Source: Spirogloea muscicola
Taxonomy: Eukaryota; Streptophyta; Zygnematophyceae; Spirogloeales; Spirogloeaceae
Reading direction: 5' to 3'
DNA length: 39,835 bases
Assembly (NCBI GenBank): GCA_009602725.1
Contig: WELB01000109.1
Location: forward strand, 394,078 to 433,912
Positions 14,242-35,708 of the stretch are shown here, in pieces; the first letter of the stretch is position 1, and the number at the start of each line of letters is the position of its first letter. A program made the translations under genes and the position numbers. A model generated the notes under the pieces. The model was not told the DNA's origin. It did no database searches and saw only the letters and a program-made list of their open reading frames with translations.

Positions 14242-14639
14242 CAGCCGCGAAACGCCCGCACCGGGACGCGCCGAGGTGGGAGGCAGCGGAGGCCGGCCAG
14301 CCGCGGCGCTCGGAAGANAGCTGGCGCGCGCGCGGGGGGGTGGCGCTGAAAGAAGCGAGGAGACGGAGACGGAGACGGCGGGGCCCGTCTCGGCTGTAGC
14401 GGCTGCCTCCTTCTGGAGGCGCGCGCCACCGCTTGCCCGCCTCGGCCCCCACCGGCCCCAGCGGCCGCACTGGGGACATTCTTCCCTTGGGCCTGCCCTC
14501 TTGCTGCCAGTGCCTCACAATTGACGGAGCTGTTTCTCACTCACTTCCTTCCCCGCGCCCCACCGGCCACGCGCGGCGACCCTGGCCCTGACTCCCCACC
14601 CCTACCACCGGGTCCTCTGACCTCGTGGGCTCGTGGGCT

Positions 14640-15185
14640 CAGGTATATCGGATGCAGAAGAAGGGCTCGCCCATTGAGAATATGGGCTGGAACAGCCAGC
14701 CCAAAAAAGAATGAACAGAGTACAAGAAGAGGGGGGGGGAAGCCAGGCGAAGCCCTAAGGCGAAGCAGCAGAAATGACAAGCACACATGAAAATGCGCCT
14801 CTCTGTATCCCTGCAGCGGTCCATGGCCCACGCTCTGCATCTGCGAGCTGGCCGTGCTCTCGCTGCGGGCTCTGGCTTTCGTCAGGGTGATAGCTTCCCG
14901 GCAGCTAGTCTGTCGGATCTGAGGCTATCCTCCCCCTGTTTTACCATTGCATCCTCAGGCCCCTTTGTAGCTGCTCACCGCTCTTAGGCCCCTCTGAATA
15001 TTTGTGAATTCCTTTTGGGCTGGCTTTTCGCAGCCCTTGCCCCCATTGGGAGTGCCACTTCTTCTCTGACCTCCGGCGCGCTCCAAGGCAGGCCACCGGC
15101 TTCCGTGGCGGCGCTCCGGCTCCCCAAGTTAGCTTGTCGTTAGCTTGTCGGGATTGTATGTGCTCACCCGTGGGTACTACCGTCA
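14640..15185. repeat. Composite dispersed element: hairpin module, TRGY peptide module, hairpin module
   Basis: From left: a reversed hairpin module (gctggaacagccagccc, about 14686-14703); an open frame on the plus strand from 14787 or 14793 encoding MRLSVSLQRS...RAGRALAA...SGFRQG...SDLRL; a module with caggcccctttgtagctgct (14947-14998) that recurs almost unchanged at 24329-24379; a forward hairpin module ending cccccattgggagtgcca; then a diverged copy of the peptide tail (15094-15175) whose frame is broken by an 11-bp tandem duplication (ttagcttgtcg twice). The same modules recur in other orders elsewhere in the window. No transposase, reverse transcriptase or terminal repeat is visible. 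Confidence 0.75.
14787..14987 (+). CDS. Small repeat-borne open frame, TRGY peptide family, copy 1
   Basis: The frame encodes MRLS-V-SLQRS, then ALHLRAGRALAA, then SGFRQG and SLSDLRL, and then runs into the adjacent repeat module and stops at 14987. The first 32 codons (from 14793) align with the copy at 22877-23029. Ten codons are identical, fifteen differ synonymously and seven change the residue. The N-terminal half is basic and lacks acidic residues, like an organelle-targeting leader. Whether it is translated, or is a relic of a gene carried by the repeat, is unknown. Confidence 0.4.
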   Translation: MKMRLSVSLQRSMAHALHLRAGRALAAGSGFRQGDSFPAASLSDLRLSSPCFTIASSGPFVAAHRS

Positions 15186-16720
15186 CACTGCTACCTTATT
15201 AGCCCCCTTCTTCTTGGGGCGAGCACTTTCTTCTAGCTACCTTGGCTTTGAGAACAGCGCGTCAAATTGAGAGCAGTGGCTGTGAGAGGTCCAGCCCTAG
15301 GAATGGACAATGTTTGAAAGGGCCGGATTGCGCAAGAAGCAAGATACGAAACACTAAGACGTCAGTAAGTAGGCTCTCAGTAACCTCTAGTCAAAAGCAC
15401 TTTTGGCTGAGCTTCCCTCTGCATCGTCTAGTGTTTTGCAGTGTTTTGTAGTATAGTCCTTTTCCGGCACTTCATTCTTCTTGGGCTGGCTGTTCCAGCC
15501 CCTATCCTCAATGGGCAAGCTCTTTCTTCTTTCTTTGGCTTTGGCTTTACATAGCATCTTCAGGCCCCTTCGTAGCTGCTACTCGCTTGTAGGCCCCTCC
15601 TTTGTTAATTCTTTTTTGGGCTGGCTTATGGCAGCCCTTGCCCCCATTGGGAGTGCCACTTCTTCTTTTTGGCTTTGGACTATATTCTTTTTGGGCTGGC
15701 TTTGCCAGCCCCTCTTCTCTATGAGCCTGAACAATGTATTGGCTCGAATTGGCCTCCCTTTCAATTCATGCGTCCCGCGCGCCTTCTCTCTCTCTCTATG
15801 GGCGAGCTCTTTCCTTTTGGCCCCTTCGGACCTTGTCAACTTTCTCCGGGCTGGCTGTTCCGGGTGAGGGCTGTTCACAAGCCCTCACCCCCCTTTGGAA
15901 AGAAAGTGGCCTCCTTTTTTGGGCTGGCTTTGCCAGCCCCTCTTCTCTCTTTGGCTTTGGACTTTGTCCCATTCTTCTCTATGGGCGAGCTCTTTCTTTC
16001 GTTGGGAGAGCCACTTTCTTTCTTCTTAGCCACTTAGCATAGGACTTCATTCGATGTAACCGGTTCGTTTGCTCTAGGTTTTGCCTGCACACTGTATTGG
16101 CTTGAGTAGGCCACCCTTTACATGTCATGCGCACCGCGCGCCTTTTCTCGACCCGCCTGCCGACCAGCACTTCTTGGCCCCTCCCTCTCTTTGGCGCCTC
16201 TCAGCAGCAGTTACATTCCTTTTGGCTGGCCTCTCAGCCACTGCCTTTTATTGGAAGAGCTGTTTCGTTCTTTTCTTCACACAGCCGGAAAAGAGCTCCT
16301 GTTTCTTTGACCTTGCCCTTATTGGGCTGGCCATTCACAGCCATCGCCCCTTCGAAAAGTTTCCCCCTTTTGGGATGGCCTTTCACAGCCATCGCCACCC
16401 TTGAAGATAAGAAGAAGCTTAATCTATCCCAAACAAATGTTTCTCCGAATTGAAGAAGCTCCTCCAAAAGAGCGATGGCTGTGGAAGAGAGGGGCCCTTC
16501 CAGTGTGACAGGCCAGTCCAACAGGTATGGACAAGGTTCAAAAGGGTCCGAAAAGCGCACGACCTTGTCAGATGGCTGTGAAGGCTAACGTCGCAGCTAA
16601 AGGGGGTTGCAGACATAAGACATTGACCTCCCACGCAGGCAAGCGGCCTATTCAGTGACCAATAAGCAGAGCGTTGGCTAGTAAACTCCCCAACACTTAG
16701 AGATTGCGGTAAGAAGTTTG
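15186..16720. repeat. Cluster of dispersed repeat modules, no gene seen
   Basis: Plus-strand copies of the hairpin module gggctggctttgccagccc, or diverged forms, occur near 15480, 15618, 15690, 15848, 15922, 16222, 16323 and 16372. They are interspersed with the module catgcgcaccgcgcgccttc (near 15767 and 16124) and its upstream partner 'gcctgcacactgtattggcttga'. A third copy of the caggccccttcgtagctgct module lies at 15551-15603. Long open frames here (for example 15481-15867) are translations of the repeats, and their predicted peptides are just the repeated hairpin sequence. Confidence 0.75.
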
Positions 16721-17140
16721 GCAATACGACTCAGCTGCTGCACGAGCTTCGTGAGCACAGTGCTGCATTTGTTAGTGACCATCCATTGCACTCCCCTAGC
16801 TCCTCAGAAGCGGCAGAAGCCTGAGCAGCCTAGACCCCGAATCAATAGTAAGGGCGGTATCGCATTGGCCGCCGGAACCGAGGAAATCTCCTGGACAGAA
16901 AAAGACGAGATGAAGAGGTGAGGATGACCTGTATCACTGGTGCAGCTTTTATGAGGATTCTTATACCTGCAAGGAGCCCTCCACTCAACGCCGCTTTAGC
17001 TCACTGGTTTTCAAGCTCCATCCTAATCTTTGACCAGGACAATTAGTGACAATATAAGGCATTGCAAAGCATTGCGAGGGTCGTCACTGGGAGGGAACAA
17101 GACCAGGACTGCATACACCCGTGAACGAGATAAGCAGTGC

Positions 17141-18784
17141 CTACCCATAACCTGGCCTGCGAGGTCTGTAACCATAAGGAGAGTACATCGCTGGCCGTCT
17201 GCCTCGGCTTGCTTTCAACCCTGGCAGATTGGTCCTCTTAGCAGTCACCTGTGCAGGGCGTATGGTTGAGCACAGGGGCGACAGTATATGAATTAGCATG
17301 GGCGACAGCAGACGAACTAGCATGGAAGCTTCTTGGACGTACATTGAGTACTTCAGGCATGAAGGCGCTCGGAAGTCCTGGAGTTAAACATTATGCACTT
17401 GTGTGCCGCAACGTTCACCTTGATCTGCCGGGCGTGCAACTCTGACTCATTCAGGAGAATTGCATTATTCACGGCCTCAAGTTCGAGGAACTCCACATAT
17501 GCAAAGCTGCATGGGTAGACAAGCAATGGGCTACATAAGCTGAGATTATGGTTCTATCTCTGATCGACAATGACTCTTAACGTACAACACTACACACATG
17601 CAACCCACTAATACCATTCCAAGAATGTTATGCAAACAAGCACGCCAGAACAGAAGCTGCAGCCTGCTGTCAATGCCTCTTATGCTCATCAGGCAAGCGG
17701 GGATGGCAACAAGCAAGGGACAGAGTACGGTAACAAGGTGAGCTATCAGATAAGGTCTACGAGTGAGTATCCTCGTACCCTTTAGGCTGACCGAACTTGT
17801 CAGTAAGTATCGTGACTCGATTGACCGTGCCACACGATTGAAAGTGCTGCTGCACCTCCTCTGGTGTGCAAGCATAGTCGACCTGCAAGGATCATAAACC
17901 GAACCCACACTTCCAGAGCTTGCCAATACATTGCTGATAGTTCAGGTCAAAGCTAGTCAAGTCAATGGTACTGGCAGTCTGTTCACCAATCATCAATAGG
18001 AGCAAAGCAGAGCTTCCAGAATGTCTCACATTGCCGACAAACACGGATCGAGCATCGGCTTCTTCTCTGGTCTGCTGTGCAGCCAAGGCACCGGGATCTG
18101 TGGAGCAACTCACACCAGCACGAGCAAAGGGATCAGTAACACAATGTAGCTAAAAAGCTTATTCTTGACGCTCCACGTCTCAAGCGTAGCAAGCCACCGT
18201 GCCTGCAGCCCTGACAGTGGGCACGGCAGAGTCCTACACAACCCTAAACCCAAACCACTGTCCCTTTTCCTGACAATGATACTCTGCTATGGCGACGCAA
18301 GCTCCTGCTGGTGGCGGCTGAGACAGCGGTACGCTTGCGCCTGATCTGCCACATGACCGTAGCAGCTGCGCGCACTGACTGCCGGTGGCACGGGGAAGTG
18401 CGGTGCCAGCAAGCGCAGGGGTAGCGAGTGCACCTTGAGCGCCGCCAGACATCTCCTTCTCGACCTTGGCCTGCATCTCCCGCAGCGCAGCCGCCTCGTC
18501 CTCCATCTCCTTGAGCCGCTTCTTCATCTCCTCCAGCTCCTGCCGAGTCCGGCCGGCGGGGGAGCGTCAGAGCTGGCCCGACGGCAGCCGCATGGCAGCT
18601 CTCGGAGGCCGTGCCGGCCGAGCCCGGCACCGCCTCGCGCGCCGGCCAGACGCACCTTGGAGGCGGCGTCGTCGCCGGCAGCGTCGTCCGCCTTGGCGCC
18701 GTCCTCGGCCTGGCCGTCCTCGCCGTCGAGGTCGCCCTCGACCTCCGGGATCTCGCCGCCATACACCTCGTGCTCGTCCTCCAT
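17141..18784 (-). CDS. PABPN1: Nuclear poly(A)-binding protein, PABPN1/PABP2 family (complete, 6 exons)
   Basis: This protein binds growing poly(A) tails in the nucleus and controls their length. Exons: 18784-18656, 18539-18434, 18097-18030, 17882-17779, 17506-17419 and 17248-17141 (TAG), giving 200 residues with consistent phases. Domain order: an acidic N-terminus ([20 protein letters not shown]), a coiled-coil helix ([19 protein letters not shown]), the linker [13 protein letters not shown] with RNP2, the RRM body [21 protein letters not shown]1 as KGFAYVEF across an exon junction, then [16 protein letters not shown]. The tail has RGRR and the aromatic-arginine end [14 protein letters not shown] typical of the family. 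It shares a 547-bp divergent promoter region, which contains an N and a repeat copy, with the membrane-protein gene at 19332. Confidence 0.95.
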
Positions 18785-18902
18785 GGCGGGCCACCCCGGT
18801 GCTGCGGCGGCAGCAGGAGGCCCCGGGCGGGCCGCCCGCGCCGGGCGAAGCTCGGACGCAGGCGGCGGCGCCGATCAGAGGCTCGAGCGGCGGCGGCGGC
18901 TN

Positions 18903-19088
18903 ACTGCCTCTGGCTTGCGCAGCGGGGTTGCTCTTCCTCCCCTCAGCTCATCTGACTTGCTACTGCTGACACGGGGGTATTGAGGGCGCCCTGTCTGCCT
19001 AGCCTTTGGCTCCGTCATGAACACCTGTATGCATCTGGCTGGCATTTCACAGCCGATTCTTTCATATCAGCAGCCGCTTTCTCCTGCC
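18903..19088. repeat. Left arm of a long inverted repeat, with TRGY tail copy 3
   Basis: The stretch right after the N at 18902 is nearly identical to the reverse complement of about 22783-22968. It starts inside the peptide module (ASGLRSG...SDLLLLTRGY, stop at about 18981) and continues through ggctccgtcatgaacacctg and tatgcatctggctggca. The left part of the element must lie in the assembly join. Confidence 0.85.
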
Positions 19089-19331
19089 CCGCCGCGGCGA
19101 GCCGGCTCGCTGGCTCGGCTCGCCCTGCGCCGCGCCCGCGCCTCCGGCCCGGCTCCGCGGCGGAGACTCGGCGGCAGCAGGGCGGCGGCCGTGCGATCTG
19201 CCATGGCGACATGACCGCTGTGGCTGCCTGCGGCTCCCGTGCATCATGCCGCTGCCGCCCGGCCTGCGCGCCCGCGACCACTGCCGCGGGGCCTCTGAGG
19301 ATGCGCCCGCGCGCCTCCAGCGCGCCGAGCC

Positions 19332-21586
19332 ATGGCGTTCAAGCTCCTGCGCAGCGTGCTGGCCACCATTGCGCACGACATCGCCGACGACCTCAAGTAC
19401 ATCTTGGGCCGCCTCTTCAGCCGAGGCGGCCATTCCTCCTTCCCTTTCCTCATCGGCAACCAGCAGGTGACGACCTCACCTTGACATTCCTGGAATTACA
19501 GGCCGCCATGCTGCATAGCAAAGCTGCAAAGCCCGGAGGGACGTCAGACACTGGCTTCCACCATGCAAGTTCTCATCCAGATGCACTGCAGCAGGTCAAT
19601 TGGGAGAACTACAACTACCCGCCTTTTCTGCGCTTGATTCACTATGAGCTCAACGATGTCGAGGTGAGCGCATGGGGCTGTGGACATACCCTTCCTTACT
19701 CCCACTTGCGTCAAGCTGCATGCATCTCCTTGTGACCCACGCAACCAGCAGTCGAAAGCGATGCAGTCAATTGGCTTTTTCTGTCCTTGCCTGCAGCTCT
19801 TATAGGCAGCGACGTAAGCTCTAGCATGCTTTTGCACGCAGGATGTACATGCAAGGAGAGCCACCTTTTTTGCTCATCTGGCCTTTGTTGTGGGGGTCGG
19901 CTCCTGCTTGGCGAATTGTAAAGCTTCATCACTTATGTCTGAGCCGTCTGCGATATATCATCTGCTGACCCTTGCATGGACGCCATCCTTCTGCGATGAC
20001 ATGGAGTTGCAAGGGGTGTTTCGTTCCTTGACCTGCTTGACTAGTACAGAGCAATTGAGGACATCGAGCATCTTGCACGCTGGCCTTGACTGGTCATGCC
20101 TGAGCGAGGAAGTGCAGTATAAGTATGCATGTATATGTTTGTAAATGAAACGTGCAAGTAAGCACTGCACTTGAGTTCCAAGTATCATACTTCGACGCAT
20201 CGATGGGTGCAGTGGGCGGCACAATTATTCTGGCATTGGGTGGTGTGCACGGGAAGGCCGTCACAATCGTCTACTCCACGTTCAGTGAGTTCATCCCACG
20301 TGAACATCTTTGTTGACCTAATATAAGCTTTGTCATGGGATGGCCTTTGCCTACGAATTTAATAGACTCCAACATACAAGTTCAAGGTCATTGCTAGTGA
20401 GCAATTCAGGGCTTGGCTGTGGTTGTTTGAGCCACTCCAATCAGCTCTTAGTGACACAGTGTGCTCAGGATTGCAGCAGTTGCACGAGGAAAGTTCCATA
20501 TTGCATCTCCTTACTGGGTTATAAGTTCTCCCTTGCAATGTAACAGACGTGGTAATCTTTGCAGTTGCTGGCTTGTACTCATTTTACATGTGTTACAAGG
20601 TGAGCTATCGTTGAAGTTGACTTTGTGTGCATGTTGCTAACTTTTCCATCCAAGTTCTCAAACTTGACAGAGATCCATGTTGAACTCTGTGCAGGGTCTT
20701 GTGACCACCAATCTCAAATTTAGTATAAGATACCTGTTTATACAGCCGGTGAGAGCTCCTCTTGCATGTTGGGTTCCTGACCTGCTAGACGATCATGTCT
20801 GAAGTCATGCTGCTCTCTGCTGTCAAGACCATATTTGTAAGTGTAATAGCATGCTAAGCCTTGATGACACAGATTCACAGGCTACTTCTGGTGACTCTGG
20901 ACCTTTTGAGCAAGATAACACAAACAGAGCTTGCCCATGGCAGATATTTATCTGTGCATTTGTTGCATTCTCCATTGTGAGTGGCTCAAATTACAACGGC
21001 TGGTTGAATCTTGCCAAGTCTCGGGTAGGTCGACAGCCTGTGTCGTACAGTAAGCTCCTCAGCAAGTTCTTGCTTTGCAGGTGATGCCTTGTCTTGATGT
21101 TTGCTAGTACAGATCACATGAGAGCAGCTGACGGATCACATGGATAAAGAAGGGGACAGGTTGCCAAGGTTGAAAGGCTGTTCTGACTTGGCCTGATTGA
21201 TGCACCTGTACCTGAAGTCTGTGTTGGTCTTGATATGCAGCGATCTAAGCAACTGTCAGGCTTTTGGTATATATGGACCATCACAGAGTCATGCTTGTGG
21301 TCATTCAATGTGGTGCTCTCATGCACTGCCCTCTTATACGTGTCACTGGTATGCCCTCAGTCAGCTCAGTGGACCAGGCAGCTTTTGTGCCAAATATACT
21401 TGATTGCAGCCAATCTGCTCTTGACGAAGCAATGCAGTCATGCTTGACTGGTGGGCTTGACAGAGGCCGTCACACATGCTCCGCGTGCAGACAAGAAGGG
21501 AAGGCAGGCCACTGGGGACTCCTCCAGTCAGCCTGCACCTGCGCGCCTCTCCGGCATCTTCATCCACAACATCTTCCAATCACTAA
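19332..21586 (+). CDS. Four-helix membrane protein, SCAMP-like (complete, 9 exons)
   Basis: SCAMPs are four-helix proteins of post-Golgi and endocytic vesicles. Exons: 19332-19466, 19595-19663, 19842-19917, 20213-20284, 20547-20599, 20695-20748, 20944-21024, 21241-21348 and 21491-21586 (TAA), about 247 residues, all in phase. The start is MAFKLLRSVLATIAHDIADD. A cytosolic NYNYPPFLRLIHYELNDVE segment sits just before helix 1, where SCAMPs carry a similar PPF...H motif. Helices: FFAHLAFVVGVGSCLAN joined to LGGTIILALGG; VVIFAVAGLYSFYMCYKGL; YLFIQPIFICAFVAFSIVSG; and WSFNVVLSCTALLYVSL. The tail is short and Ser/Thr-rich. The gene structure is well supported; the family name rests on topology and the PPF region and is less sure. 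Two arms of an inverted repeat flank the gene. Confidence 0.7.
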
Positions 21587-22340
21587 TGAGCCCTTATCAC
21601 TAGATAAGCATGCTAAGCTTGTCACAGATGGTGTACAGGAGATAGCGGTACATTTGGGGATGCAGTTGGTAATTGCCTTGAAAAACTGGTCTTTACATTG
21701 CAAGCAAGGGAGTTGTCAACGGCGGATCCTGCAATTGATGGGTACAGGAGCAAGCACATGAGCACACAGCCCAGGAACATTTTCAGCATTGAAGATCCTG
21801 CTTGTTCTTGAGAACTGTCTCTCTTTGTGGACTTGACTGCTCGAATCAGGTCTGTTCTGGAGTGACTCGGTTTGACAGACGTTTCGAACAAGGCTGACAC
21901 ATTTTACAGCCTTATTTTGATCAAACCTGACATATTTCACAGTGCATGGACTGAAGATCTGGGCAAATTTTGAGCTTGTAGCTGGTTCTCCGAACATTGT
22001 TGCTGTGGTTGGTGCGACTGCAGTAGAATCAAAGTTCACTCTTGTAAGTTCCGCCAACGCATCAGGTGAAATGGAGAGGCCAACTTACTGAGGTACGCCA
22101 GAGGTTTCTTTGTTCGAACCGAAGGATTTTTGTTTTGCGGGACCTGTAAGCTACGGATCCCGGGGTGCAATGTCAATTGTGATGATGCTATGCTGCTGCT
22201 GGGGTGATACCTAACTCAGGAGTTGCTGATGGATATAGAAGATTGTGTACACGTCTTAGGGATGACCAACCCTGTTCCGCTTATGCATCAGATGAACAAA
22301 GGAAGGTCCTCAGTCACGAGAGGATCCATTTTACAAACAA
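21587..22340. other. Downstream region of the SCAMP-like gene, no further gene seen
   Basis: No exon or domain is recognisable. TGTAA occurs at about 22043 and 22145, but neither is close enough to the stop to assign as a polyadenylation signal. Confidence 0.4.
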
Positions 22341-23298
22341 TTTTCAACCAATACAGCTATGTACAAAGTAAAAGAATAAGGTTCCATCACTGTTGAGGGG
22401 ATGGGAGGCGAGGGTGCGTCTGTACGAAGTGGGAGAAACAAACGACGGCCAAATGGCCAAGTATAAAGGCAAGGGAAAAACAGAAGGAGTGTATAAAGTG
22501 AGGGAGGGCCTGTGTGGCCAAGTACAACGGTAAGCACATTGATGAACGTACATCACCTGCTGCTAAGCTGACCCGCTCAGTAACCGAGTCAGCACATGGA
22601 GGAGTGAGAGGCAGCAGCAGTGGCAGGAAGGATGGCGAGTGGGAGAAAGGAGGGCTGGAGGTGCCACAGAGCGGGGGGAGCCGTACCGCTGGGGGCCATG
22701 TTGACTCGACCGGCGCCGCTTCTAGAGCTGCTAGAGGAGTGGGAGGCAGCAGCTGTGACAAGAATGGCGGGTGGGAGAAAAAGCGGCTGCTGATATTACA
22801 AAATCGGCTGTAAACTGCCAGCCAGATGCATACAGGTGTTCATGACGGAGCCAAAGGCTAGGCAGGCAGGGCGCCCTCAATACCCCCGAGTCAGCAGTAG
22901 GAAGTCAGATGAGCTGAGGGGAGGAAGAGCAACCCCGCTGCGCAAACCCGAGGCTGCTGCAAGGGCGCGACCAGCCCGGCGATGCAAAGCAATCGCCTGG
23001 GACCGCTGTAGGGACATAGACAAGCGCATACGGTAGCAGGAGAAAGGAGGGCCAGAGGTGCCACAGAGCGGGGAGAGCCGTGCCGATGAGGGCAAGGGAG
23101 GGTGCCGGCCCAGGAAAGCCGCGGGCGGGGATCGGGCGGGGCGACGGGGGCCGGTTGCGCTACAGGGTTGGCGCCTCTTCAGGCCACGCCAGCCTCCCCT
23201 GGCGGCCCCCGGCCCCACACCACCTTTACCTTACTCATCATCCAATTCCCTCCAATTTGGTTTGGGAAGAAATGTGGCTCTCCGAAATGGAAATTTAG
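22341..23298. repeat. Dispersed repeat block and right arm of the inverted repeat
   Basis: About 22440-22560 carries two copies of the ggccaagta...ggcaag module also found at 5440-5545 and 23593. From about 22783 to 22968 the sequence is the reverse complement of 18903-19088 with only a few differences. The peptide module continues to 23029 (separate entry). The block 23060-23220 is GC-rich and has no recognisable product. Confidence 0.75.
22877..23029 (-). CDS. Small repeat-borne open frame, TRGY peptide family, copy 4 (complete, 50 residues)
   Basis: An ATG at 23029 opens a frame encoding MRLS-M-SLQRS, ALHRRAGRALAA, SGLRSG and SSSDFLLLTRGY, ending TGA at 22877. The frame also runs upstream beyond the ATG; I chose the ATG shared with copy 1. 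Comparison with copy 1 over 32 codons shows twice as many synonymous as replacement differences, as expected under selection on the peptide. The stop after TRGY is shared with copies at 18981, 23358 and 35045. The function is unknown; the basic, alanine-rich N-terminus resembles a transit peptide, so this could be a first exon rather than a complete protein. Confidence 0.45.
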   Translation of the reverse strand: MRLSMSLQRSQAIALHRRAGRALAAASGLRSGVALPPLSSSDFLLLTRGY

Positions 23299-23358
23299 GG
23301 CGACGTCTTTCCGCCAGCTAGCTACTCGGACTTGCATCTCCTGACCAGAGGTTACTGA
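23299..23358 (+). repeat. TRGY peptide tail, copy 5
   Basis: Reads GDVFPPASYSDLHLLTRGY followed by TGA. It forms an inverted pair with copy 6 at about 23440-23510. Confidence 0.6.
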
Positions 23359-23437
23359 GCGTTCCCTGGCTGATGTCTTAGTCCTGGTCGTTCGCACTCA
23401 GGCTCCCTCAGACCTTGTCCATTCCTTTGGGCCCAAA

Positions 23438-23515
23438 CCTCTAGACAGGAGATGCAGATCCGAGTAGCTAGCTGGTGGAAAGACGTCGCCCTGACGGAAG
23501 CCGGAGGCCGCGCTT
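23438..23515 (-). repeat. TRGY peptide tail, copy 6
   Basis: On the minus strand this reads ASGFRQGDVFPPASYSDLHL then LSRG, without the stop. It is almost the reverse complement of copy 5, about 80 bases away. Confidence 0.6.
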
Positions 23516-24438
23516 TGGGCTGGCCTTTCCCAACCACCAGTCAATCTGGCCGCGCTTCTTCGAAATTTCGTGTGTTTGGACCAAACGAAAGAATGGCCAA
23601 GTACAACGGCAAGCACATCTAAACTGGGGGCGGGGAGCTGTGAACGGCCTGCCCAGAATGAATTGATAAGGTCCGAGAAGCACGCAGATGACTCTCCGGA
23701 TCCGGCGGCGAATGCCCGGGGCCCGGTGCGCGCAACCGGCGCCGTCTGGCCGGACCGGCGTTCGCCGGCGGTCCGGCATAGCCGGGCACGTGATCCCGGC
23801 GCCCCGACGGTGAGGCGCAAGTGCCCCGCCCCGAGGGGGCGAGCCGCGTCGCCATTTCCGTGGCATCCTCTGCCGTTCACCACCGTTGGTTGGCTTTGCC
23901 AGCCCCTCTTCTCAATGGGCGGGCACTTGCTCTTCTTCTCACCACCGCCGCGAGCGCGGAGCCCGTCAGAATGTGCATGTGGCCTCGGCGAATAAGGGGT
24001 GCTCAACAACCCCTAGTCGGAAGGTTCACCGATGCACTTCTTTCTTTGGCTTTGAACATCGTCCATTCATTTTGGGATGGCTTTGCCAGCCCCTCTTCTC
24101 AATGGGCGAGCACCTTCTTCTGAATCCATGGTCAGGCTCTGCAGAGGAGGGCTGGTTCGGAAGCGGGGCATCATCAGCCCGGGGGGTAGGCCGGCGACAC
24201 CGCAGGCCCCGCTCCGCGACAGCGGAGGGGCCACCTGGCGCAGCCGGGCGTCCAAGGCGACGACCCGGGGTGGGTGGCCCCACCCGCCCATTGTCCTCGG
24301 TCATTGCTCTGTGCGCCTTTTTACCATCGCATCCTCAGGCCCCTTTGTAGCTGCTCACCGCTCTTAGGCCCCTCTGAACCTTTTGTGAATTCTTTTTGGG
24401 CTGGCTTTTCGCAGCCCTTGCCCCCATTGGGAGTGCCA
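23516..24438. repeat. Dispersed repeat block up to the N at 24439
   Basis: Contains hairpin-module copies near 23890, 24075 and 24397, the caggcccctttgtagctgct module at 24329-24379, and the module with tctttggctttgaacatcgt (24040-24060), which recurs reversed near 34965-34980. The stretch 24329-24438 is nearly identical to 14947-15058. The GC-rich segment 23690-23860 and the one at 24140-24290 have no recognisable product. Confidence 0.7.
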
Positions 24439-24449
24439 NCCGCCGCCCC

Positions 24450-27400
24450 ATGGCCGCCGCCGCCGCGCCGCCCCTCCCGGCGCTCCTCGGCCTGCTGGCG
24501 CTCCTCCTCCTCCTCGACTGCGCTTCAGGCCAGCCCCCTCCTCTCCCGCTGGGCAGCTCCCTGGGCTCCCTCCCGAGCCCCCGTCGGCCGCTGCTGGCCT
24601 GCCCGGCCACAGTGCCCAGGCCCTCGCCGCCGTCCTGATGGCGCACCGATGCCTGCCGAGCTCTTAGCCTGAGACGGACCCCCGCGGCCCGACGCTGACG
24701 GCGTGATTGTGTGTGCGCTCGCTGGCAGGCGGCGCCTCGAGCTGGCACTCTGCCCTCCCCAGCCAGGTGCGTAGTGCGCCGCCCCTGGGCGACGTCGTGC
24801 CAGGGGACGTGCGAGAGGTCGGCAGCAGCGCTGGTGTCAATGGCGTCGTCGAGAAGAGGAGTCCGTGCCGACTCCTGAGCGGGCGCGGTTGCCAGCTGGG
24901 CGGGGCAGGTTGGGTGGCGAGCGGACTCCAATCTGCCGGCGGCGGCAGACGGCAGCCGGCGGTCGCTCATCACGGCCGGAGACTTCTCCAGTGAGCCTCG
25001 CACCGCCCGGCTCTGCAGCTCCCAGTGGAGCCCAGCCAGTGCTGACCAAGCATTTGATGTGCTTGGGCGGCGCCACCATTGGCGGCGGCAGGCGGGCCGG
25101 GGTACTTGGTTGGGCCGGGGAGCCCAGTGGACGGGGCAGTGTCGCCGCCGCCGACGGGCGACCCCGCCGTGCTGTGCCTCGCCGTCCTCGGCGGCGGCGC
25201 GGCGTACGCCTACGGCCAGCCGGTGGGCGGCTTCCCGTGCGAGGCCATGGCCCCGTCGAACCTGTGGACGTTCACCGCGACGGACCGCTTCTTCGGCGGG
25301 CCGCCCAGCGGGACCAACCACACTGTCATCAGCGTGCAGTCGCCCAACGGCACCGTCCTCTGCCTCGACGCCACGGGCACCGACGACGCTGCTGCTACGT
25401 CGCTCATCGTCTTCGGCTGCAACGGCGGGCCGAACCAGCAGTGGTCCCAGGATGGCCCGCGCCTGCGCAACGGCGGGGACGACGGCGTACACCCCCGCTA
25501 CCTCCTGCTGTCGACCACGGCCAGCGTCCAAGGCAGCGTTGCCATTGTCGACGCCCCCGAGCTTGCCACCAACTTCACCTTCGTGCACGAATTCCAGAGT
25601 GCGTTCCGGGCCTTGCGCACACACAGGGTGGCAAGTCTAGCACCGCCTGCAGGCGGCCACTGACTCGGTGTTTGCCAGTCTCTGGCTGACATGAAGTTGA
25701 TCTCTCGCGGCACCGTGCTCTCGTAGGCCCGCCGCCGCCTCCCTCGCCCCCGCCCCCGCCGCCGAGCCCCCCACCGCCTCCTCCCTATCAATGTGAGTGC
25801 CTGACCGCGTGGTGCAAGATGACCCCAGCTGGCCCCTTGCCTTCCCCAGAAATTCCTCAGGCACACCTAGATTCCTGCCATGCCTTTCCGGGCAGCCGAA
25901 TCAGTGCCCGACTAGGGGCATCCCACTGTGAATGCCAGGCACAGGACCAACCAGCTTCAAGGACTTCATCGAGGCGGTGCTCAAGGGCGACGCCAGCTCC
26001 ACCATGTCACTGTGCGCCAACATCACCGTGGATGCATCGGTCAAGATCGTCGGCTCTAAAGGGCACACCATCACTTGTGGACTGCCTGCCATCTACACTT
26101 GTGGCTTCTTGGGCAATCCGTCCGCACGCCTGGCGCTCTTTGACATAGCCTCCTCGGATCTCACTTTTAAGAACCTGCTGTTCCAGGGCGTTGTGGTGCG
26201 TGCCTCGACCTGTCACATTCACTTTCGACTCTGCCTTAGAGAAGCAATGCCCCTGCAGTGCACATCACTGATGCTGTTGAGCTCGATCATGGCCGGTTAC
26301 TTTCCCTTCTCCTCTTCAGCTGTCTTGCTCGGTCTCTTTTCCATGGCGAGCTAATGCGGGCCTCTACTTCTGCTGCCGATATAAAGTGCACTCTGTCTTG
26401 TGGTGGAGACAGTGTGCCGCAAGCTAGCCACGGACTGATACACTCTTTCTCCTGGTCCGCTGCTTTAGTCTGAGCCAGCAGGAGGAGGAGCTGTTGCAAC
26501 AATTACTGGCTCCAACATCTCCTTTGTCAACTGCCAGTTCCTGAACCTCGTCGGCGGGGTTCGTGACCACAAGCTCAATCATAGCTTGCTTGAGTTGTTG
26601 TCTAGAGTAGCCACATGAAGCTGGGAGTGGGCATTGGTCAGCTTCAATGCCTGCCAGCCAACAGGTGCTGCAGTCACGGCAGCTACTGCTACCTACAGAC
26701 CTGCTTTGACGAGGTGCCCTGCTGCCTGTGGAGAGCTGTGCAGCAAGATGGAGCGATCACCGCAGTCGATTCCAAGGTCACTCTGACCGGCTGTTCATTC
26801 CTCAACTCGAGCTCGAAAATTGTATCTGGCGGAGCGAGCGCTCAGAATGTTGTAAGTGTTCTTCCTGCTCAGCACCCATCACGAAGTTGCTGGTTCGCTC
26901 AATGTGGGCTTCTCGGGTTCGCTTTGCACGGCTAGAGCTAGAAAGGCACTCTGTCAAGCAGGTGTCTCTCTTGTGGCTGCTTTCAGGATCTCTGCAACAG
27001 CGCAAGAAATGCCGGTGCTTCTTTTCCTTTTGATTGGTCTGGTCTGCCTTTCTAATGTCAGCCTCAAGCTGCTATGCCTGCTTTCAGGGTGCAGGGGCTA
27101 TTGGAGTGTATGGGACGTCCGTGCTGACTGTCACAGGCAGCACCTTCCGCAACAATGCTGGATCTGACGCGGTCAGATTGACAATCTGCCCACTTACTTC
27201 TTGCATCACCTTAGGCAGCTTGCTTCTCACCGGTGAGAGCTCAAGGGCGGCTGGCATGTAGAGACTTGCAAGGGTGCTGTATTATACGAAGATAGGTCCT
27301 CCAGTATTAACACTATAGAATAGATGGCTCTAGACAGTCATGAGTCGGGTTTGAGATAGGATCATGTGAAAGTCTCTCTCACATATCCCTAAGAATCTGT

Positions 27401-30400
27401 TTACACGTAAAAGGCTGGTTGGCTGCACTGACACGTTCCGTGCTGTGGTCTGAATGCAAGCACAGAGATAGCTTGCCAGGAGCCTTATGTTCCAGCCCAC
27501 AGTCCAAAAGCTACACGCTTGTTACATTCTTGATGCCGTTCCCTTGTGTGGCCCTACATGCAGGGTGCCATTGTATCCTCAGGTGCTGCAGGGGATGTGT
27601 CCTCTTGCAGCTTCTCTAACAATACCTCGGACAGGGTGGGCATTGTGTTCCATGACATTCGCTTGCTGGCCTCGTGTTCACTGCCTGCAATGTTCTGCGA
27701 GAAGACATTGATGAACGTGGTTTTCAAAGTGCCTACTTCATCTGTGTAGGAACAACATTGTCCTCACACAAGCTGCACAACTGATGCACACGCTTGCAGG
27801 GTGGCGGAGCAATCTGTGCTGGAGCCCCAACAAATGTCACGGACTGCACATTCACAGCCAATGGTGCCACAACTGTGAGAGTGCTGTTCCTGCATGACTT
27901 TCAGCAGCTGTATGCCTTGATCACAACATCCCCAGTCACCTGGTCCTGACTCAAGTCAACAATAATAGCTCTGCAGCAGCTGAGTGCCTCCGCTGTGCTT
28001 GGTCAAAGCCTTGGATCTTGCTTGCCCCTATTCCAGAATGGTGGGGCGCTCAAGCTTTTAACGCCTGGCAACTACATTCAGTTCTCCAACTTTTCCAGCA
28101 ATGCTGCTGGCGGGTTTGTGAGTGCACCATGTCCCTGTGACCATTCTTGGTGTCAAGTACTTTCATGGCCAAATTGTCTGCATTGTAGTTGTGTTTGTGG
28201 TCGCAGAATGCATACAAATGAGGTATTGCACGACTTTGACAGTGCATAATCCTGCACTATTGAATAGCTGCGGCACTCGCGACTCAAGGCGAGTGTACTG
28301 ACAGCAATGGCCAGCATTGTGCTATGTGCACCACATCGGACAGTTACTGTCTTTTACCAAGTCTTATGGTAGACATTCCGGGTGTCGAGACTCATTTGTT
28401 GAGCAGGGAGGAGCTGTGTATACGGAAGCCGCAGCAGATGGGACGGCCCTATACGCCAGCATCAGGGGCTGCATCTTTGAAGGCAACACGGCAGACACCG
28501 TAAGTATCTCTTTATGCTTGTTAAATGACTCTACTATGAGGGACTGCATCTGCACTGCACTTCTGAGAATGTGAGACATACTTGCTCCATATACATTACA
28601 GACTGTCAAGGGTGCTGGATGCGCACTCATAAGGTAAAGGCACCCTCTTCGTTGCTATGTGACCTGCTTTGCTGCAACAGCTATCACTGATTGGCTGCGC
28701 AAGGTGCTCTTGTGGCAAACCAGGGCGGGGCTGTTTCTTTCTTCTCCACCACCATCTTCAAATACTACAACCAGATCACCTTCTCCTCGTTTCTCCACAA
28801 TGCTGCTCCAGCCGTGAGCTTCCTACGTTCTGCAAGCCCGCTGCTTCGTTGTCTGCACACAGATGCTAGTAACACACCAGCATACTTAGTCAGCACTTGA
28901 GCAAGAGCTCATGTATATACGATGTCCGGAATTATGATTGTGTGGGAAACTTACCAATGGGTTGCAGGATGGAGGGGCCTTGCTGTCACGAGGCCTTCTG
29001 GACATGTATGCAGTCATTTTCCAGGACAACACGAGCGAGGTACCTTGACCCAATAAATGCTCCTGACTGCATCTGTCGCTGCCGTCTGTTGCTCCAATAT
29101 TGACTGAAGGTCATTCTAAGTGAGTGAAACGTTTCAGGAGCACACGCCTCTGATTGCAGTCGACCTGCTTTTGCAGAAAGGCAGCGGGGCTGTGTCTGTG
29201 TATTCCCTCTGCCTCTGGCTCAAGCAGTGTCTCTTTGGATCTAATAAGGGGGCTTTTGTGAGTTGAGAAGCATGAGCCTGCTAGATACCTACTTATTGCT
29301 CGGCTAAGATGGGTGCAATTGACTTGTGACCGGATGCTTGCTTGCCTTGCCTACGTATTGCTCACTGGTTGTTGCTGCACAATCAAGCCTCTTGAGAGGA
29401 TCTTCCTGCCTGTTTTAGGGTGGAGTCTACTTCAGGGGGGACACGCTGACCATCAAGCAGTCCAACTTCACTGGCAACAAAGCCATGACAGATGTGAGAC
29501 GCCGGTTGACCCTCTCTCAAATATCACTGGTGCATCAGCGTCAGCTCAGGATGTATGACTTCAAAAGTGTGCCGTAGCTGGACGGCTATGTGAGGAACTT
29601 TGGGAGTCAGAAGACAATGCAGTCCACAAAAAGTTGCCATTGAATTACCACTGTTTGAATACATGCTTCACGGTAACAGAACGGTGGTGCTGTCAACGGG
29701 ATTGCCGAGGTCAACACGACAATCGAGGAGAGCAACTTTGACTCCAACTTTGCCAGCCATGTCCGTCGATAATCCTCATGTCTATGACTGCATCAGTGGC
29801 TGACGTCACCGTGCACTGTTGTGTTGTTTCTTACTGACTGCATGGATCACTGCAGACAGGCCTGAGTATGCAGGCACATTTGACAAAGACTGTCTAAAGC
29901 GCTGTGGGCTGTTCTGTCGAATATCACTTTAGGGAAACCATCCAGGGCTTATCTAACGCTTGACAAAGGCGTCTGCAAGACCATGTGCAGCTGGGGGGCG
30001 CATTGTACCTGGAGCCAGGCTACCTCTCCATGACCTTCTCCACATTTGCCAACAATGAGGCAGCAGCAGGCGACTCGCAAGTATGATCCCAGTTTTGCTC
30101 GACATCTGCTCTGCTGCGGAGACTTGCACTGCCCTTGGCCATATGGTAGTGCCCTCTAAATTTAGTGATTCTGCAGTTAGTGGTCACTGAGTGGTCAGCA
30201 ACCCTGTCCATGGGGACTGCTGATTATTAGTTGCTTGAGATACAGACTCAAGGGGAGGCCCTGAGCTCTGCAGCGTGTGTTACACAGGGCAGCTCGCTGT
30301 TGTTTGTGACCTCATGCTCCATCTCCCTTTGCACTTCAGAGTGCCGGAGGAGCTGCATACTTTGCCGGCACTGCGTTTGGCAACTCGTCGGCAACTTCGT

Positions 30401-31744
30401 GTTCGTTCACCAATAATACTGCGGTACAGTGTTGCCACCACATTGCAGCAAGATCATGTTGCCCATTGCTTTAGCTCTTAGCAAAGCGAAGCGCAGGCCT
30501 CGAGCACTGGATGCTGCGATACTAAAGCTGACAAGCACTTCAACACATTGTCGTGCTACACTGGCCAGTCTTCTGCTGGAGCCGTACAGGTTGCCAGTCC
30601 ATACAGCCTCACATTATGTGGATCCACCTTCTCCGACAATGTTGCAAAGGTGAGGATACCTCCCGCTTCTGGTGGGTGCAAGCTTTGCCAGTGATGTAAT
30701 CTCTGTGCATGCACCTAAAGTGACACAAAAGACCACTGATTGCAGTCTGCAGTAACAGGAGACAACCTTGTGAGTGGTGGGACGACCAAGCTTTGTGGAA
30801 CCCTGCAGCCTGCCATGGTTGGATCCCACCAAAGGCAATCATGCTGTCTTAGTTTAGATGCGTCTGCCAAATCATTAAAGACTAGCAAGTAATTAGCTCA
30901 ACTGCACCTTGACAATGTTGTCTTACATAGCAGAGCTCCTCGGGTTTGTTGTTGCAAGTATCTGACAGGTCCTTCAAACTCATATCTGCAGCTCCTCCTG
31001 ACACGCCGCATTTGATGAACGGCTGTAACAGAATGGGACCGTCAAGGTTACCGGAGGCTCCATCAGTCTGAGTGAGTCTGACGCCCTATGCATTCCAGTG
31101 CTGCATTTGACGCAAGACTCTGGCGGGCTACATTTGCTGCAGAGGCCAGCTGTTCCTGGTCAAACACGCATTTGATACCGCATCTCATAGTGCACTCACT
31201 TCTGACAGGTTGTGAAGCTTGTGAATGCTTTCCACTCTGCTCGCCCGTGGGCATCTGTGCACTGTTTGACCCCGTCCAACCCTGCGCCTGCCCTATTGGG
31301 CTCGTCGGGGACGGCTTTATGTGCAGTAAGTAGTCTAGCAAGCTGCTGCAAAGAGGCCTGCCTACATGCTCAGCACACGCGCCGTGCCAAGAAGCAGAGA
31401 AAGGAAATAAGAAACCAAAAAATGGGCTTTGCTGTCGCACTGTAGGCTTTGCTAGTGTCTCTTCCTACTGCTTGTTACATGTCATCATCAAGGAAGCAAA
31501 AGTGCCATGCGAGCCAATCCAGCCACCACAAATCGGTTTTCATATTCATTGTGCAGGAAATCCTCCACCTCCCCCTCCGCTGTCTCCAGGCCAAAGCGCC
31601 TCGAAGCCAGGGAGGTGTGATGGAATCCCGTGCTCCAAGTTTGGAGACTCTGCTGCGACCTGTCGAATTGGTGCAGGGCACACCTTGGTCTGCATTTGCA
31701 GCTCCAACTACGTTAACAGTCAAGGCACCTGCCTTCCAAAGTAG
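24450..31744 (+). CDS. Large secreted protein: ricin-B-like domain, Pro-rich linker, Pmp-like beta-helix repeats, two EGF-like modules
   Basis: The ATG at 24450 starts a clear signal peptide (LPALLGLLALLLLLDCASG). An exon ending at 25598 encodes a ricin-B-like unit with NGTVLCLDATG and PNQQW. Exon 25727-25792 is a Pro/Ser linker. Exon 25939-26195 opens the beta-helix (TSFKDFIEAVLKGD). GGA/FxxN repeats follow in exons 26481-26558, 26744-26851, 26987-27014, 27095-27171, 27564-27635, 27800-27874, 28037-28117, 28407-28499, 28724-28813, 28968-29039, 29177-29257, 29419-29493, 29680-29760, 29991-30080, 30340-30423 and 30569-30649, then 30746-30769 and 31032-31071. EGF-like modules are 31209-31325 (CEACECFPLCSPVG, CACPIG) and 31557-31744 (TAG). 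Most junctions are phase 0. Exons between the signal peptide and the ricin-like unit, and the junction before 26481, are unresolved. It is probably a wall or matrix adhesion protein. The lectin-type unit alone does not make it a toxin. Confidence 0.8.
26481..30649 (+). repeat. GGA...FxxN repeat exons of the beta-helix gene
   Basis: About fifteen units of 24-31 codons share a Gly-Gly-Ala-(Ile/Val/Leu) start, a Cys/Ser turn and a Phe-x-Asn-Asn-type end. Examples are GAIGVYG...STFRNNAGSD, GGAICAG...CTFTANGATT, GGALKLL...NFSSNAAGG, GGALYLE...STFANNEA and GAVQVAS...STFSDNVAK. GGA(I/L/V) and FxxN are the hallmark motifs of chlamydial polymorphic outer-membrane proteins and related right-handed beta-helices. 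Each motif pair is one coil-set of the predicted helix. Confidence 0.8.
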
Positions 31745-31834
31745 ACAGGCCATTGTAGCCATTTCCTGGTGCCGGCACCCCAATGACAAGGTTGCTGATT
31801 GAGCAGCCGAGAGCAGTCAAGAGAGGTATATCTT

Positions 31835-31864
31835 CTGTGGGGGCACTGAGGAGTGCCCCCACAG
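31835..31864. other. Perfect 13-bp hairpin 90 bases after the beta-helix gene stop
   Basis: The arms ctgtgggggcact and agtgcccccacag are perfectly complementary and separated by gagg. On the plus-strand transcript this gives a very stable stem with a four-base loop in the 3' untranslated region. The rest of 31745-33915 shows no convincing gene, apart from a repeat copy at about 32985-33055. Confidence 0.85.
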
Positions 31865-32984
31865 CAGGTATGCTCTCTGAGGTGCTCAATTGACTTATGA
31901 GTGGCTTGAGTACAGTCACATATGAGCTTGTGCAGTACTGGAAGATAGAAGTGCTCGCCTCATTCTTTGGTGGCATGGGTGAGCTCACCCATTATCCACT
32001 TTATTTTTTTGTTACTTCTTTACTTCATCTGCAAGATCGGTAGGTGATTGTTTTGTAATTAGCACACTAAGCTTCCCGACTTAATTCTCCGTGCACTAGG
32101 TACACACCATATTTGGACTAGACCCTAGATTACCGGGCAGATTGAATATGCATTTCTGATGTACCACACACCTGTCCAATTTGGAAGCCACTGCCCAAAT
32201 CTGGCAGTAGTCTTGAGCATTGCGGTAAGAGTGGACTGCTCTACCAGTCGTAGTGGACTGTTGCTGCTCAAATTTGCTGACACGAAGTGCTTGCAATGCT
32301 GCCCTGGCAACAACCCTAAGACTTGCCCTGCGCGTCTGTGATGGGCGTGCTTTTGCTGCTACTTTAAGCTCCAGTAAGGGCCTACTCATGTTCCGCTACC
32401 AGTAGTGGAGTGCTCATTCACACACACCTCCCCATCCTTCACTGTGAGAGGCTGATGGACTTGGCATCTCACATGTGGTCCTGGCCACCTCTGAGGGGGA
32501 AGCCGGGAAGCCCGATGGTGGATGGCCTGGCCAGGGAAGACCCTATAGTGCAGCCTGGATGACAGGCTGCCTGGAGCAACGGCAGGCATTTGTCACTGAG
32601 TTCATTATTTTCGCCTGAACCTGTGGAGCGCCTTCGCCTCCATCAATTGCAAAGATTGCGCGGTTGGGTGTAGATGCTCGAGAGAAGGACGAAAACTTGG
32701 TCCAAGCAAGATTGGCCAGCTTATGGAGGACCAGGACAGCCAGGACGATGGCAGGTGGGCTGTAGTGCCAACAGCCACGGGTCAAGAGCCACCAAAAGAA
32801 GCTACGACAGGCAGAGTGGCGACCTGGGACTCTCGCAGACCTGGTTTTGGCCTGCCGCACAAGCTGGACCAGAAGGGCACGCCAACGCCTCAGATGCACC
32901 ATGTGAGGACAGCCAAAAAGTTCGAGTGATCAGCAGGGGTTGGTGGGCGCTTTTTCTACTGCTAACACTCTGGACGTTTTGTCA

Positions 32985-33055
32985 GAAGGACACTCGTAAG
33001 GCCAGACTTGGCCTCCCTTTCAATCTCATGCGTACCGCGCGCCTTCTCGGTGGAC
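32985..33055. repeat. Dispersed repeat module copy
   Basis: Contains the 'ggccagacttggcctccctttcaa' partner, then tcatgcgtaccgcgcgcctt and a ggacgagct segment, in the same order as near 15740-15800. Confidence 0.75.
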
Positions 33056-33915
33056 GAGCTTTTTCCATCCCAAGGTCCGAGCGACAAGCCCATCAGTGCC
33101 CAGCCTGTCCAAGCGATGGTTGGATCGCACGGGTTTGCTATCTAAGCCCCAAGACTGGAGCCCCTGTTGCTAGGTTCCTGTGAATTTACCCGTGGGTAAA
33201 GCTGTCGAGCTTGATAAGTGCAAATGATCTTGCACCCGCTGATCTGGCCATCTATTCAAATGCTAAACCCTTGATGCCAAAACGCAAACCCTGAATCTAG
33301 ACTTCATGCCGCCTTCGTCCTTTCCTAGAAAAGCGTGGTCACACTCTGACTTCCTCATGGTGGTCAAGAGGTGGGTTCAAGGTTTACGCTTGTCATGAGC
33401 TTCTCATGCCGTTGTTGGCCTGCATATGTTCTGATTGAAACAGTATCCCAAGGCCACGTTGAGGAACTGCTCAGACTCTCAAGCCCGCTTACTTTTCTCG
33501 ACAAGTTCAACAACCATCCAGTGCTCCTCTATATGCTGGTCCCTCATTCCCAATGCTCACCTACATGGCAAGCCTATGCTACATCCCTATACCAAGCGCT
33601 GTAATCAGCACCAAGTGGACCCTCAAGATTCGCTCCTATGTTAGCCGCGCAGTCCCCGAAAGAACAGCGAACTGCCAACAGAGTCTTTACTTGACTTCAA
33701 ATCCAGGCCAATCATCATCGGAACTCGTAACCGTCGAGCAGACTACAGGAGCCCTACCTGTCTGTGTGACTTTGTGGCTGATCTCTGTGAGGGCGGTACT
33801 TGGTTGGAGGGCGGATGGAGGGCGGATCCTCAGCTGTGTGTATCAACCCAAAGGGTACATAATCTTTGCATCTGCCCACCCTCTCATAGCCTCCGTGAAC
33901 GCCCAACGGCAACGG

Positions 33916-33988
33916 TCCGTTGTAGTCTAGTCGGTTAGGATACCCGGCTCTCACCCGGGCGACCCGGGTTCAAATCCCGGCAACGGAG
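33916..33988 (+). tRNA. tRNA-Glu (anticodon CTC)
   Basis: The 73-base cloverleaf has acceptor stem TCCGTTG pairing with CAACGGA, a D-arm with GTCTAGTCGGTTAGGA, an anticodon stem CCCGG/CCGGG with loop CTCTCAC (anticodon CTC), and a T-arm CCCGG-GTTCAAAT-CCCGG. The discriminator base is G. No intron is present, and CCA is not encoded, as usual for a nuclear gene. The A- and B-box promoter regions are internal. Confidence 0.95.
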
Positions 33989-34017
33989 ATCTAGTTCATT
34001 TTTGTTTTCCACTTGCT

Positions 34018-34180
34018 GGCCCCCTCAGATGCCCTCTGGCCCGGCCCTCTGGCCCGGCCCTCTGGCCCATCTTCTCGCCTACGGCAAACAACAAGATCAG
34101 TGACTAAAAAATTTTGTTCGTCACTCGCTGGCCCCCTCAGATGCCCTGTGGCATATCATCTCGCCTTCGGCAAGCACCAA
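34018..34180. repeat. Short direct repeats downstream of the tRNA
   Basis: The block ggccccctcagatgccct followed by atcttctcgcctacggcaa occurs at about 34018-34086 and again at about 34131-34172. The first copy contains three tandem copies of a 12-bp unit, ccctctggcccgg-like (34034-34070). The stretch 33989-34640 holds no recognisable gene. Confidence 0.7.
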
Positions 34181-34262
34181 GCTCATTGAACCAAATTTGG
34201 CGGCCCTTTGGCGGCCCTCGAGCCAGGCTCTTCAGTATTACCAGTTATTTGCTTTTACACCA

Positions 34263-34339
34263 CGGCTTACACGTGCAGGTGCTGCCGCGGACTTGTCCCG
34301 CAACTCTGACCGCAGTCACTATCTTGCACGTGTAAGCCG
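34263..34339. repeat. 15-bp perfect inverted repeat
   Basis: Arms cggcttacacgtgca (34263-34277) and tgcacgtgtaagccg (34325-34339) are perfect reverse complements with 47 bases between. Confidence 0.85.
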
Positions 34340-34493
34340 GACCTTGCAGCTCCATGATGAAGGCTCCCGTCGCCCGTACTTCGTGCGTCACGGTGACAGC
34401 AATGCCCAGTAGTCTCCTCCCTCGAGCGGCCTGTGCAGCAGGTCAAAGATCGTCGCCATGGTCGGAGGGGCCGTTTGGAGCATGCCACCACAC

Positions 34494-34526
34494 CTGTAGC
34501 ATGCAACTGCGGGATGCATGCTACAG
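34494..34526. repeat. 12-bp perfect hairpin
   Basis: Arms ctgtagcatgca (34494-34505) and tgcatgctacag (34515-34526) with a nine-base loop; pairing can continue beyond a one-base bulge. Confidence 0.85.
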
Positions 34527-34639
34527 GGTGCAGCTTACGCTGTTGCCGCAGCGCTTGCAGTACTGCATTTGCCAGCTTGTGTGGTCTGTAGATCTAATTG
34601 ATGTGTGCGGAGCTGCATAAAGGTCTCGCCCGCTTCATG

Positions 34640-35105
34640 CAGGAACTGACCCTCTTCAAACGGAAGGGAGCAATGGCTGTGAAAGGCCAATAAAAGACAG
34701 TGGACACATCGGACTCCGGAGTGTGAGGCTCAGTCCATTCCCTCAGCTTATCTGGCTTCTCACTGCTGACACGGGGCTATAAGGAGGAGGCAGAAGCTCT
34801 TCTAGGAGGGGGCGATGAGAGAGAAGATTTTGTGAAAGGCCAGCCCAGAGAGATATGAAAAGCTCCAAATTGGAAGACCTTGAGCTGCCCAGCCACGGAG
34901 AAGAAGGTGCTCGCCCATTGAGAAGAGGGGCTGGCAAAGCCAACCCAAAAAGAATGGACAATGTTCAAAGCCAAAGAAAGAGGTGCTGAAAAAGGACTAC
35001 ACTACAAAGTGCAAGATGGTGCAGAGGGAGATGCAGATGGCTGCTCAGTATCCACGTGTGAGCAACAGCAGATCAGAGTAACTCGGAGCAGGAGAAGCGG
35101 CNAGC
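34640..35105. repeat. Dispersed repeat block with TRGY tails 7 and 8
   Basis: The plus strand at about 34736-34783 reads SLSLSGFSLLTRGY. A reversed hairpin module (gctcgcccattgagaagagg, then ggctggcaaagcc) lies at about 34909-34945, followed by the reversed tctttggctttgaac module. On the minus strand, 35105-35045 reads AASPAPSYSDLLLLTRGY and a stop, with the N at 35102 just inside it. Confidence 0.7.
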
Positions 35106-35418: not shown

Positions 35419-35708
35419 CCAAGTGTCGGCCTGCTCGCAGGCGTGCTCAGGCTCATGCTTTGCATCAGAAAGCTGGGCGAGCTCTAGTCGGTGGCCGAAG
35501 GGCTCGGAAATTGCCATCTGGGATTCAGGCATCGATTAGCGACCTTCATGTGGTGGCCCGTGGTTTCTGAGCGGGTCAGTTTGCAGTGGATATTGTAACT
35601 TATCCGACGTGCTTGCCGGTCGTCTTGGCCGCTCTGGCCTTCCATTTCTCCAAACACACGCCACGTCCGTCCCTCGTTGTTGGCGCACAGAGCTTGCACC
35701 GCACGCCA

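Follow-up and report, generated by a model that had tools for sequence, protein, structure and literature searches.

The window, that is, the whole 39,835-nucleotide stretch of Spirogloea muscicola (Zygnematophyceae) DNA analysed here, contains a dispersed repeat that encodes pieces of a single peptide. The initial annotation had listed eight places for these pieces, and tblastn together with direct translation finds the peptide encoded at all eight on the strands that it gave. The tblastn queries were genome-derived tails of two subfamilies run on the window, and they also detect an unlisted ninth copy at 35167-35573 (+; E 2e-11). Eight of the nine are pieces of approximately 13–54 codons each.

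The leftmost copy belongs to subfamily A and lies in two parts. A short piece just 5' of MRLS (14624..14651, +), which matches the subfamily-A copy at locus L003 with one mismatch, is separated by a 141-nt insertion (14652..14792) from the tail and 3' UTR (14793..15064, +; alignment, tblastn E 2.2e-24), where the end of the ORF and its stop have been lost to a 26-nt deletion. The insertion, which appears as a gap in the alignment, has ATGC (4 nt, read directly) repeated at its edges and contains a match to a minus-strand hairpin module (14671-14729). Next, at 15077..15177 (+), comes a degenerate tail (GFRGG..PQ.SLS / SLSGLYVLTRGY) that belongs to a further subfamily and has a frame break between 15139 and 15142; its tblastn match (E 1.1) is weak alone, and the tail of the predicted protein P0003 is similar to it. 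Subfamily-B tails with their 3' UTRs occupy 18903..19079 (+; stop ending at 18983, tblastn E 1.4e-10, 96.6% identity to the B reference over 18906-19079) and 22781..23041 (−; stop at 22877-22879), the latter extending to the constant 3' end of the family, giving tblastn E 5.2e-30 and entering the boundary set as L009. Two tails belong to subfamily C: GDVFPPASYSDLHLLTRGY followed by a stop at 23299..23358 (+; E 6e-4), which has genome places 95–98% identical to it and also closes the 519-aa frame of locus L078, and a tail at 23438..23523 (−; E 1.6e-4, and translation) with the altered last residues LLSRGLG and no stop. Farther along are a B-like degenerate tail, LLTRGYKE, whose stop is lost (34736..34783, +; 85% DNA match to subfamily B at 34740-34780, E 1.9e-6), and a tail ending in PAPSYSDLLLLTRGY and a stop (35045..35101, −; tblastn and translation). 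By tblastn alone the copies at 35045 (E 0.044), 34736 (E 0.44), and 15094 (E 1.1) are non-significant. The ninth copy (35167..35573) is old and degenerate; it extends from the endonuclease helix through to the tail, which reads SDLHVVARGF and a stop, and its frame is interrupted by an internal stop.

Four of the eight listed copies (18903, 22880, 23299, and 35045) have a stop directly after TRGY, as the initial annotation had stated. It is absent from those at 14793 (the 26-nt deletion), 15094 (TRGYYR), 23438 (SRGLG), and 34736 (TRGYKE); counting the ninth copy, which has ARGF and a stop but also the earlier internal stop, brings the number that terminate at this point to five of nine. The window assembly has single Ns at 3350, 14318, 18902, 24439, and 35102. 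The 5' edge of the 18903 copy adjoins the N at 18902 and the 35045..35101 copy adjoins that at 35102; because the Ns at 18902, 24439, and 35102 lie directly at the edges of repeat pieces, some copy ends may be assembly joins and not true ends. Positions 24319-24438 hold a subfamily-A 3' UTR piece with no coding part (97.5% identical), and a tRNA-Glu gene (anticodon ctc) is found at 33916-33988 (ARAGORN).

The hairpin motif GGCTGGC(N1-9)CAGCC occurs 15 times in the window (14685-16342 and elsewhere), a count in which two palindromic sites enter once per strand, against 0.31 expected in shuffles. It is found near the 3' ends of both subfamilies A and B with differing loops, and perhaps represents an RNA feature common to several elements; the folding of the A and B 3' ends is no better than that of shuffles (z −0.83 and 0.58).

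The parent reading frame

We searched the 153,112,186-base assembly of S. muscicola (471 contigs) and found many close relatives of both the 14793 (A) and the 22880 (B) copies among the 40 of 2,043 and 40 of 2,050 first-look candidates that were scored. At the DNA level the two subfamilies match only weakly, with 73.0% identity over 89 bases and 71.6% over 95 bases when the 14793 and 22880 copies, respectively, are aligned with the reference of the other. A 93-aa extension of the A tail was matched by all 150 scored places (94–100% identity; 19,427 first-look candidates), only three of which have an in-frame stop, although these places were picked by protein score, a choice that biases them to intact copies.

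In subfamily A, the copies at L058 and L059 each contain an open frame of 593 aa that reaches the edge of the locus, with the motif order (A/G)DPLAGFFF, YADDTT, CECGERSTDPAELAAHLLRC, GGERTAAHDLLRD, RRVDLVASTPGGGARIIADVV, KAAKHSDHP, PLAVDVHGALG, MRLSVSLQRS...SDLRLLTRTY, stop. With a longer flank of L059 (L069) the frame extends to 634 aa and matches the RVT_1 profile over positions 108-203 of 205 with 30.0 bits (cut-off 29.6); two shorter A frames fall below this cut-off (20.6 and 22.4 bits), and two B frames, both of which start past the reverse transcriptase (RT) region, have no RVT_1 match. The subfamily-B frame at L019 (554 aa) has the same layout as A from after YADD to the stop. In subfamily C, which includes the 23299 and 23438 copies, the open frame at L078 is 519 aa long, and approximately its last 438 residues align with A and B while its first part does not. 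The YADD motif occurs in the subfamily-A frames and also in a rearranged copy of subfamily B (L021), and lies beyond the reach of the reference frames of B and C. The frames read cover the C-terminal half of the ORF in single fetched copies. Subfamily A thus has the reverse transcriptase with a YADD-type active site by which non-LTR retrotransposons are recognized.

The methionine that appeared to start the peptide is an internal codon, preceded in the longer frames by YR (A and B) or FH (C). At 14793 it looks like a start codon because the 141-nt insertion splits the copy, and the ATG is simply where the element resumes. Rather than having its own start and coding conservation confined to a short ORF, the sequence is conserved 5' of this methionine in three subfamilies. 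A non-LTR retrotransposon ORF has this peptide as its C-terminal tail and terminates at the stop that follows TRGY.

As described in PMC5678591, the core of the RLE endonuclease is a PD-(D/E)XK variant in which a distant KX2KY supplies the K, and the CCHC knuckle has the spacing CX2-3CX7-8HX4C; for R2Bm, PMC10499050 gives the order RT, linker, CCHC, RLE and names Asp996 and Asp1009. The Spirogloea frames contain RVD-X14-D followed by KAAKH (A) or KLNKY (B), and, by eye, RAD-X14-D and KERKY (C), that is, the PD-(D/E)XK-variant core with a distant KX2KY that marks RLE LINEs, in A and B and by eye in C. Their likeness to RLE LINEs (R2, R4, CRE, NeSL, HERO, and Utopia, with R2Bm the best studied) extends to the succession of RT, linker, Cys/His cluster, C-terminal endonuclease D...D...KX2KY, and C-terminal extension (layout in PMC5678591 and PMC10499050). 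They differ in that the Cys/His cluster of A and B is spaced CX1CX12HX3C, the knuckle spacing given in PMC5678591 not being found in the A or B frames, and in that the copies lie in varied flanks, with no single target seen among the boundary loci. Judged by these motifs, the family would work like an RLE LINE, having the endonuclease core and departing from the published knuckle spacing, and we assign it to no clade. Dualen/RandI elements occur in green algae, and the family resembles them in being an RLE-bearing LINE, a comparison that rests here on the C-terminal half of the ORF. Dualen encodes both APE and RLE endonucleases (PMC4640811).

Three protein homology searches (approximately 8,000 candidates scored in each) returned four, eight, and five matches, all from the SM000... 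naming series, which we take to be that of S. muscicola; these narrow searches yielded no relatives from other species. One of the matched proteins, P0006, which a public source places at 's299:69480:71846', matches the assembly best on contig 299 at 69483-70316 (99% identity). Sequence searches of solved structures matched none, one of them yielding chance-level matches only (best E 0.9), and structure prediction for P0008 without an alignment gave no usable fold (mean pLDDT 38.9). A description of the family was not found among the literature titles and abstract openings listed.

Ends of the copies

The boundary set comprised 38 loci (8 + 30) picked with 3'-end queries, and a boundary was obtained for 37. 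In 34 of these the copy ends at the same last base of its subfamily, and the other three are at most 3 nt off. For the 5' starts, eight of the 37 have unreadable upstream sequence and two reach the edge of the locus, leaving 27, of which five (L001, L021, L029, L030, and L036) begin at an internal break caused by deletion or insertion and were set aside. The remaining 22 copies have 19 distinct 5' starts. A constant 3' end combined with variable 5' truncation is characteristic of LINEs, and is seen here in loci picked with 3'-end queries. In the truncated copies, the codons upstream of the element start are unrelated flank. Direct repeats of 9–15 nt at both ends are present in four of the 27 copies (L005, L006, L012, and L034), the rest having shorter ones or none, a count that carries no chance control.

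Four subfamily-B copies with different flanks (L009, L011, L012, and L020) start at the same or the next base (reference 1501-1502), which is a possible truncation hotspot. In L036, positions 1088-1236 and 1501 onward are two pieces of one subfamily-B copy that overlap by 8 bases of the reference (1497-1504), and they look as though the copy had later been split by an insertion that duplicated a short target. Among six 10-kb stretches taken blind, ORF matches were found in one (L071), although much of the 60 kb is unreadable; at L071:9378-9752 a sense tail is flanked on both sides by inverted internal ORF pieces, as in inverted LINE insertions.

Silent and replacement changes

The codon comparison on which the initial annotation had based its case for selection is reproduced exactly: between the 14793 and 23029 copies, 32 codons comprise 10 identical, 15 synonymous, and 7 replacement cases, with 6, 5, and 19 differences at codon positions 1, 2, and 3, respectively. 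Its conclusion that such a silent excess reflects evolution as coding sequence is borne out, and the bias spans the sampled ORF between subfamilies. For A and B, dS is 2.5 and dN 0.51 across 548 codons, and the part upstream of the tail is biased in the same way; for A and C, dS is 1.74 and dN 0.26 over 434 codons; and for B and C, dS is saturated and dN is 0.49 over 434 codons. The latter two comparisons leave out approximately 70 non-aligning codons with which the C frame begins, and in both the bias is unchanged without the last 50 codons. Protein conservation between A and B is 68% over the 50 codons of the tail versus 48% over the 498 elsewhere.

Raw pN/pS among copies at least 97% alike is 0.22–0.32 by group, and 0 in two window copies with one change. 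We replaced pooled pN/pS, which when taken by identity band counts at least one place twice (the overlap of L004 and L041), with a split into shared and private changes because pooling mixes the changes of parents with those of copies. The subfamily-B set consists of 35 copies of at least 100 bases and at least 90% alike, drawn from DNA-based matches, flanks, and the window. Its private changes, those seen in one copy only, number 65 replacement (N) and 32 silent (S), against 66.1 and 30.0 expected from their own mutation spectrum, and four of them are stops, whereas the changes seen in at least two copies number 6 N and 13 S and differ from the private ones (Fisher p 0.0085). In subfamily A (12 copies), the private changes number 4 N and 10 S against 9.6 and 4.3 expected (p 0.002), more silent change than drift alone would leave; a set of 22 A copies chosen by protein score gives 11 N and 11 S (p 0.06). 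Few A copies were sampled, most of them more than 99% identical, and the excess of silent private changes may represent parent variants sampled once.

A comparison of dN with dS had been proposed as a check on the claim of selection: dN is well below dS between subfamilies, and private changes are near neutral in B but not in A. The selection on coding sequence that was claimed is real, but it acts on the parent transposons, between subfamilies, and not on a small gene; it is selection on the parent jumping genes that makes the peptide look selected. With their constant 3' end, scattered 5' ends, and, in subfamily B, near-neutral private changes, the copies resemble the 5'-truncated dead-on-arrival copies of LINEs, and they differ from these in the few private changes of subfamily A, which look non-neutral, and in the very high number of short pieces.

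Origin of the peptide

Based on these analyses, the repeat is almost certainly the 3' end of a large LINE family of several subfamilies, whose ORF encodes a reverse transcriptase, a Cys/His cluster, and a C-terminal RLE. The frame is continuous through these domains, the 3' end is constant, and the 5' ends are scattered. We hypothesize that copies are made by target-primed reverse transcription, of which such ends are the usual mark when it halts early; because synthesis would start from the RNA 3' end and frequently break off, the tail would be the most copied piece. The subfamilies would differ mainly by silent changes because parent elements must keep their protein working, and dead copies would drift after insertion; the split between private and shared changes in subfamily B is that expected of dead copies from selected parents.

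The initial annotation had offered two other readings, neither of which is needed to explain the peptide. In one, the repeat carries along a small protein gene that is selected on its own in each copy, as might be suggested by the silent excess between copies, by the stop common to four of the eight listed window copies, and by the silent private changes of subfamily A. We consider this exceedingly improbable, given that the same frame runs on 5' into an RT-endonuclease ORF in three subfamilies (A, 593 and 634 aa; B, 554 aa; C, approximately 438 aligned residues of 519), that the methionine is internal, that unrelated flank takes the place of the upstream codons in truncated copies, and that the private changes in subfamily B look neutral. 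It also speaks against such a gene that, within the window, five of the nine copies (14793, 15077, 23438, 34736, and 35167) have lost the stop or the frame and eight of the nine are the short pieces described above. The other reading, a targeting-peptide exon spliced from the repeat onto downstream genes, draws on the Arg-rich, N-terminal-looking sequence and on predicted gene models that hold tails, among which P0004 starts with MRLSMSLQRS... and P0005 and P0008 join tails to other sequence. These models are only predictions, however, and are largely chains of LINE pieces. Furthermore, in-frame ORF codons precede the methionine (YRM, FHM), and the ATG at 14793 is the edge of the later 141-nt insertion. 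As read directly, the GT near RGY stands in a differing codon register (GGG TAT, GGT TAC) while the codons are kept, and we therefore dropped the idea that a splice donor is conserved there. The chance that this reading is correct appears to us to be next to nil.

A related possibility is that LINE tails have become real exons of some genes of this alga, contributing a methionine, an Arg-rich helix, and a GT near the stop, such that a truncated copy upstream of a gene could serve as a ready-made N-terminal presequence. We regard this as very unlikely; the models with tails (P0004, P0005, and P0008) fit exon uptake and mistaken gene prediction over LINE debris equally well. Pieces of this LINE, from the RT-endonuclease part or from the tail, occur in five predicted proteins (P0003, P0004, P0005, P0007, and P0008), and in two of them such pieces are joined to other domains (PF00230 in P0004 and PF00561 in P0007), through exonisation or annotation error.

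The coding signature is a true one, produced by a LINE family that is common in this genome, often in pieces, and whose ORF ends in the peptide. A coding signature can arise in dispersed "non-coding" repeats, and when most copies of a LINE are 5'-truncated, its 3' end should show just this, a short conserved peptide with silent changes. These findings also document, in a streptophyte alga, an abundant LINE lineage of the RLE type whose Cys/His spacing is unlike that given for RLE LINEs in PMC5678591, and they suggest that S. muscicola gene models holding such tails may need checking.
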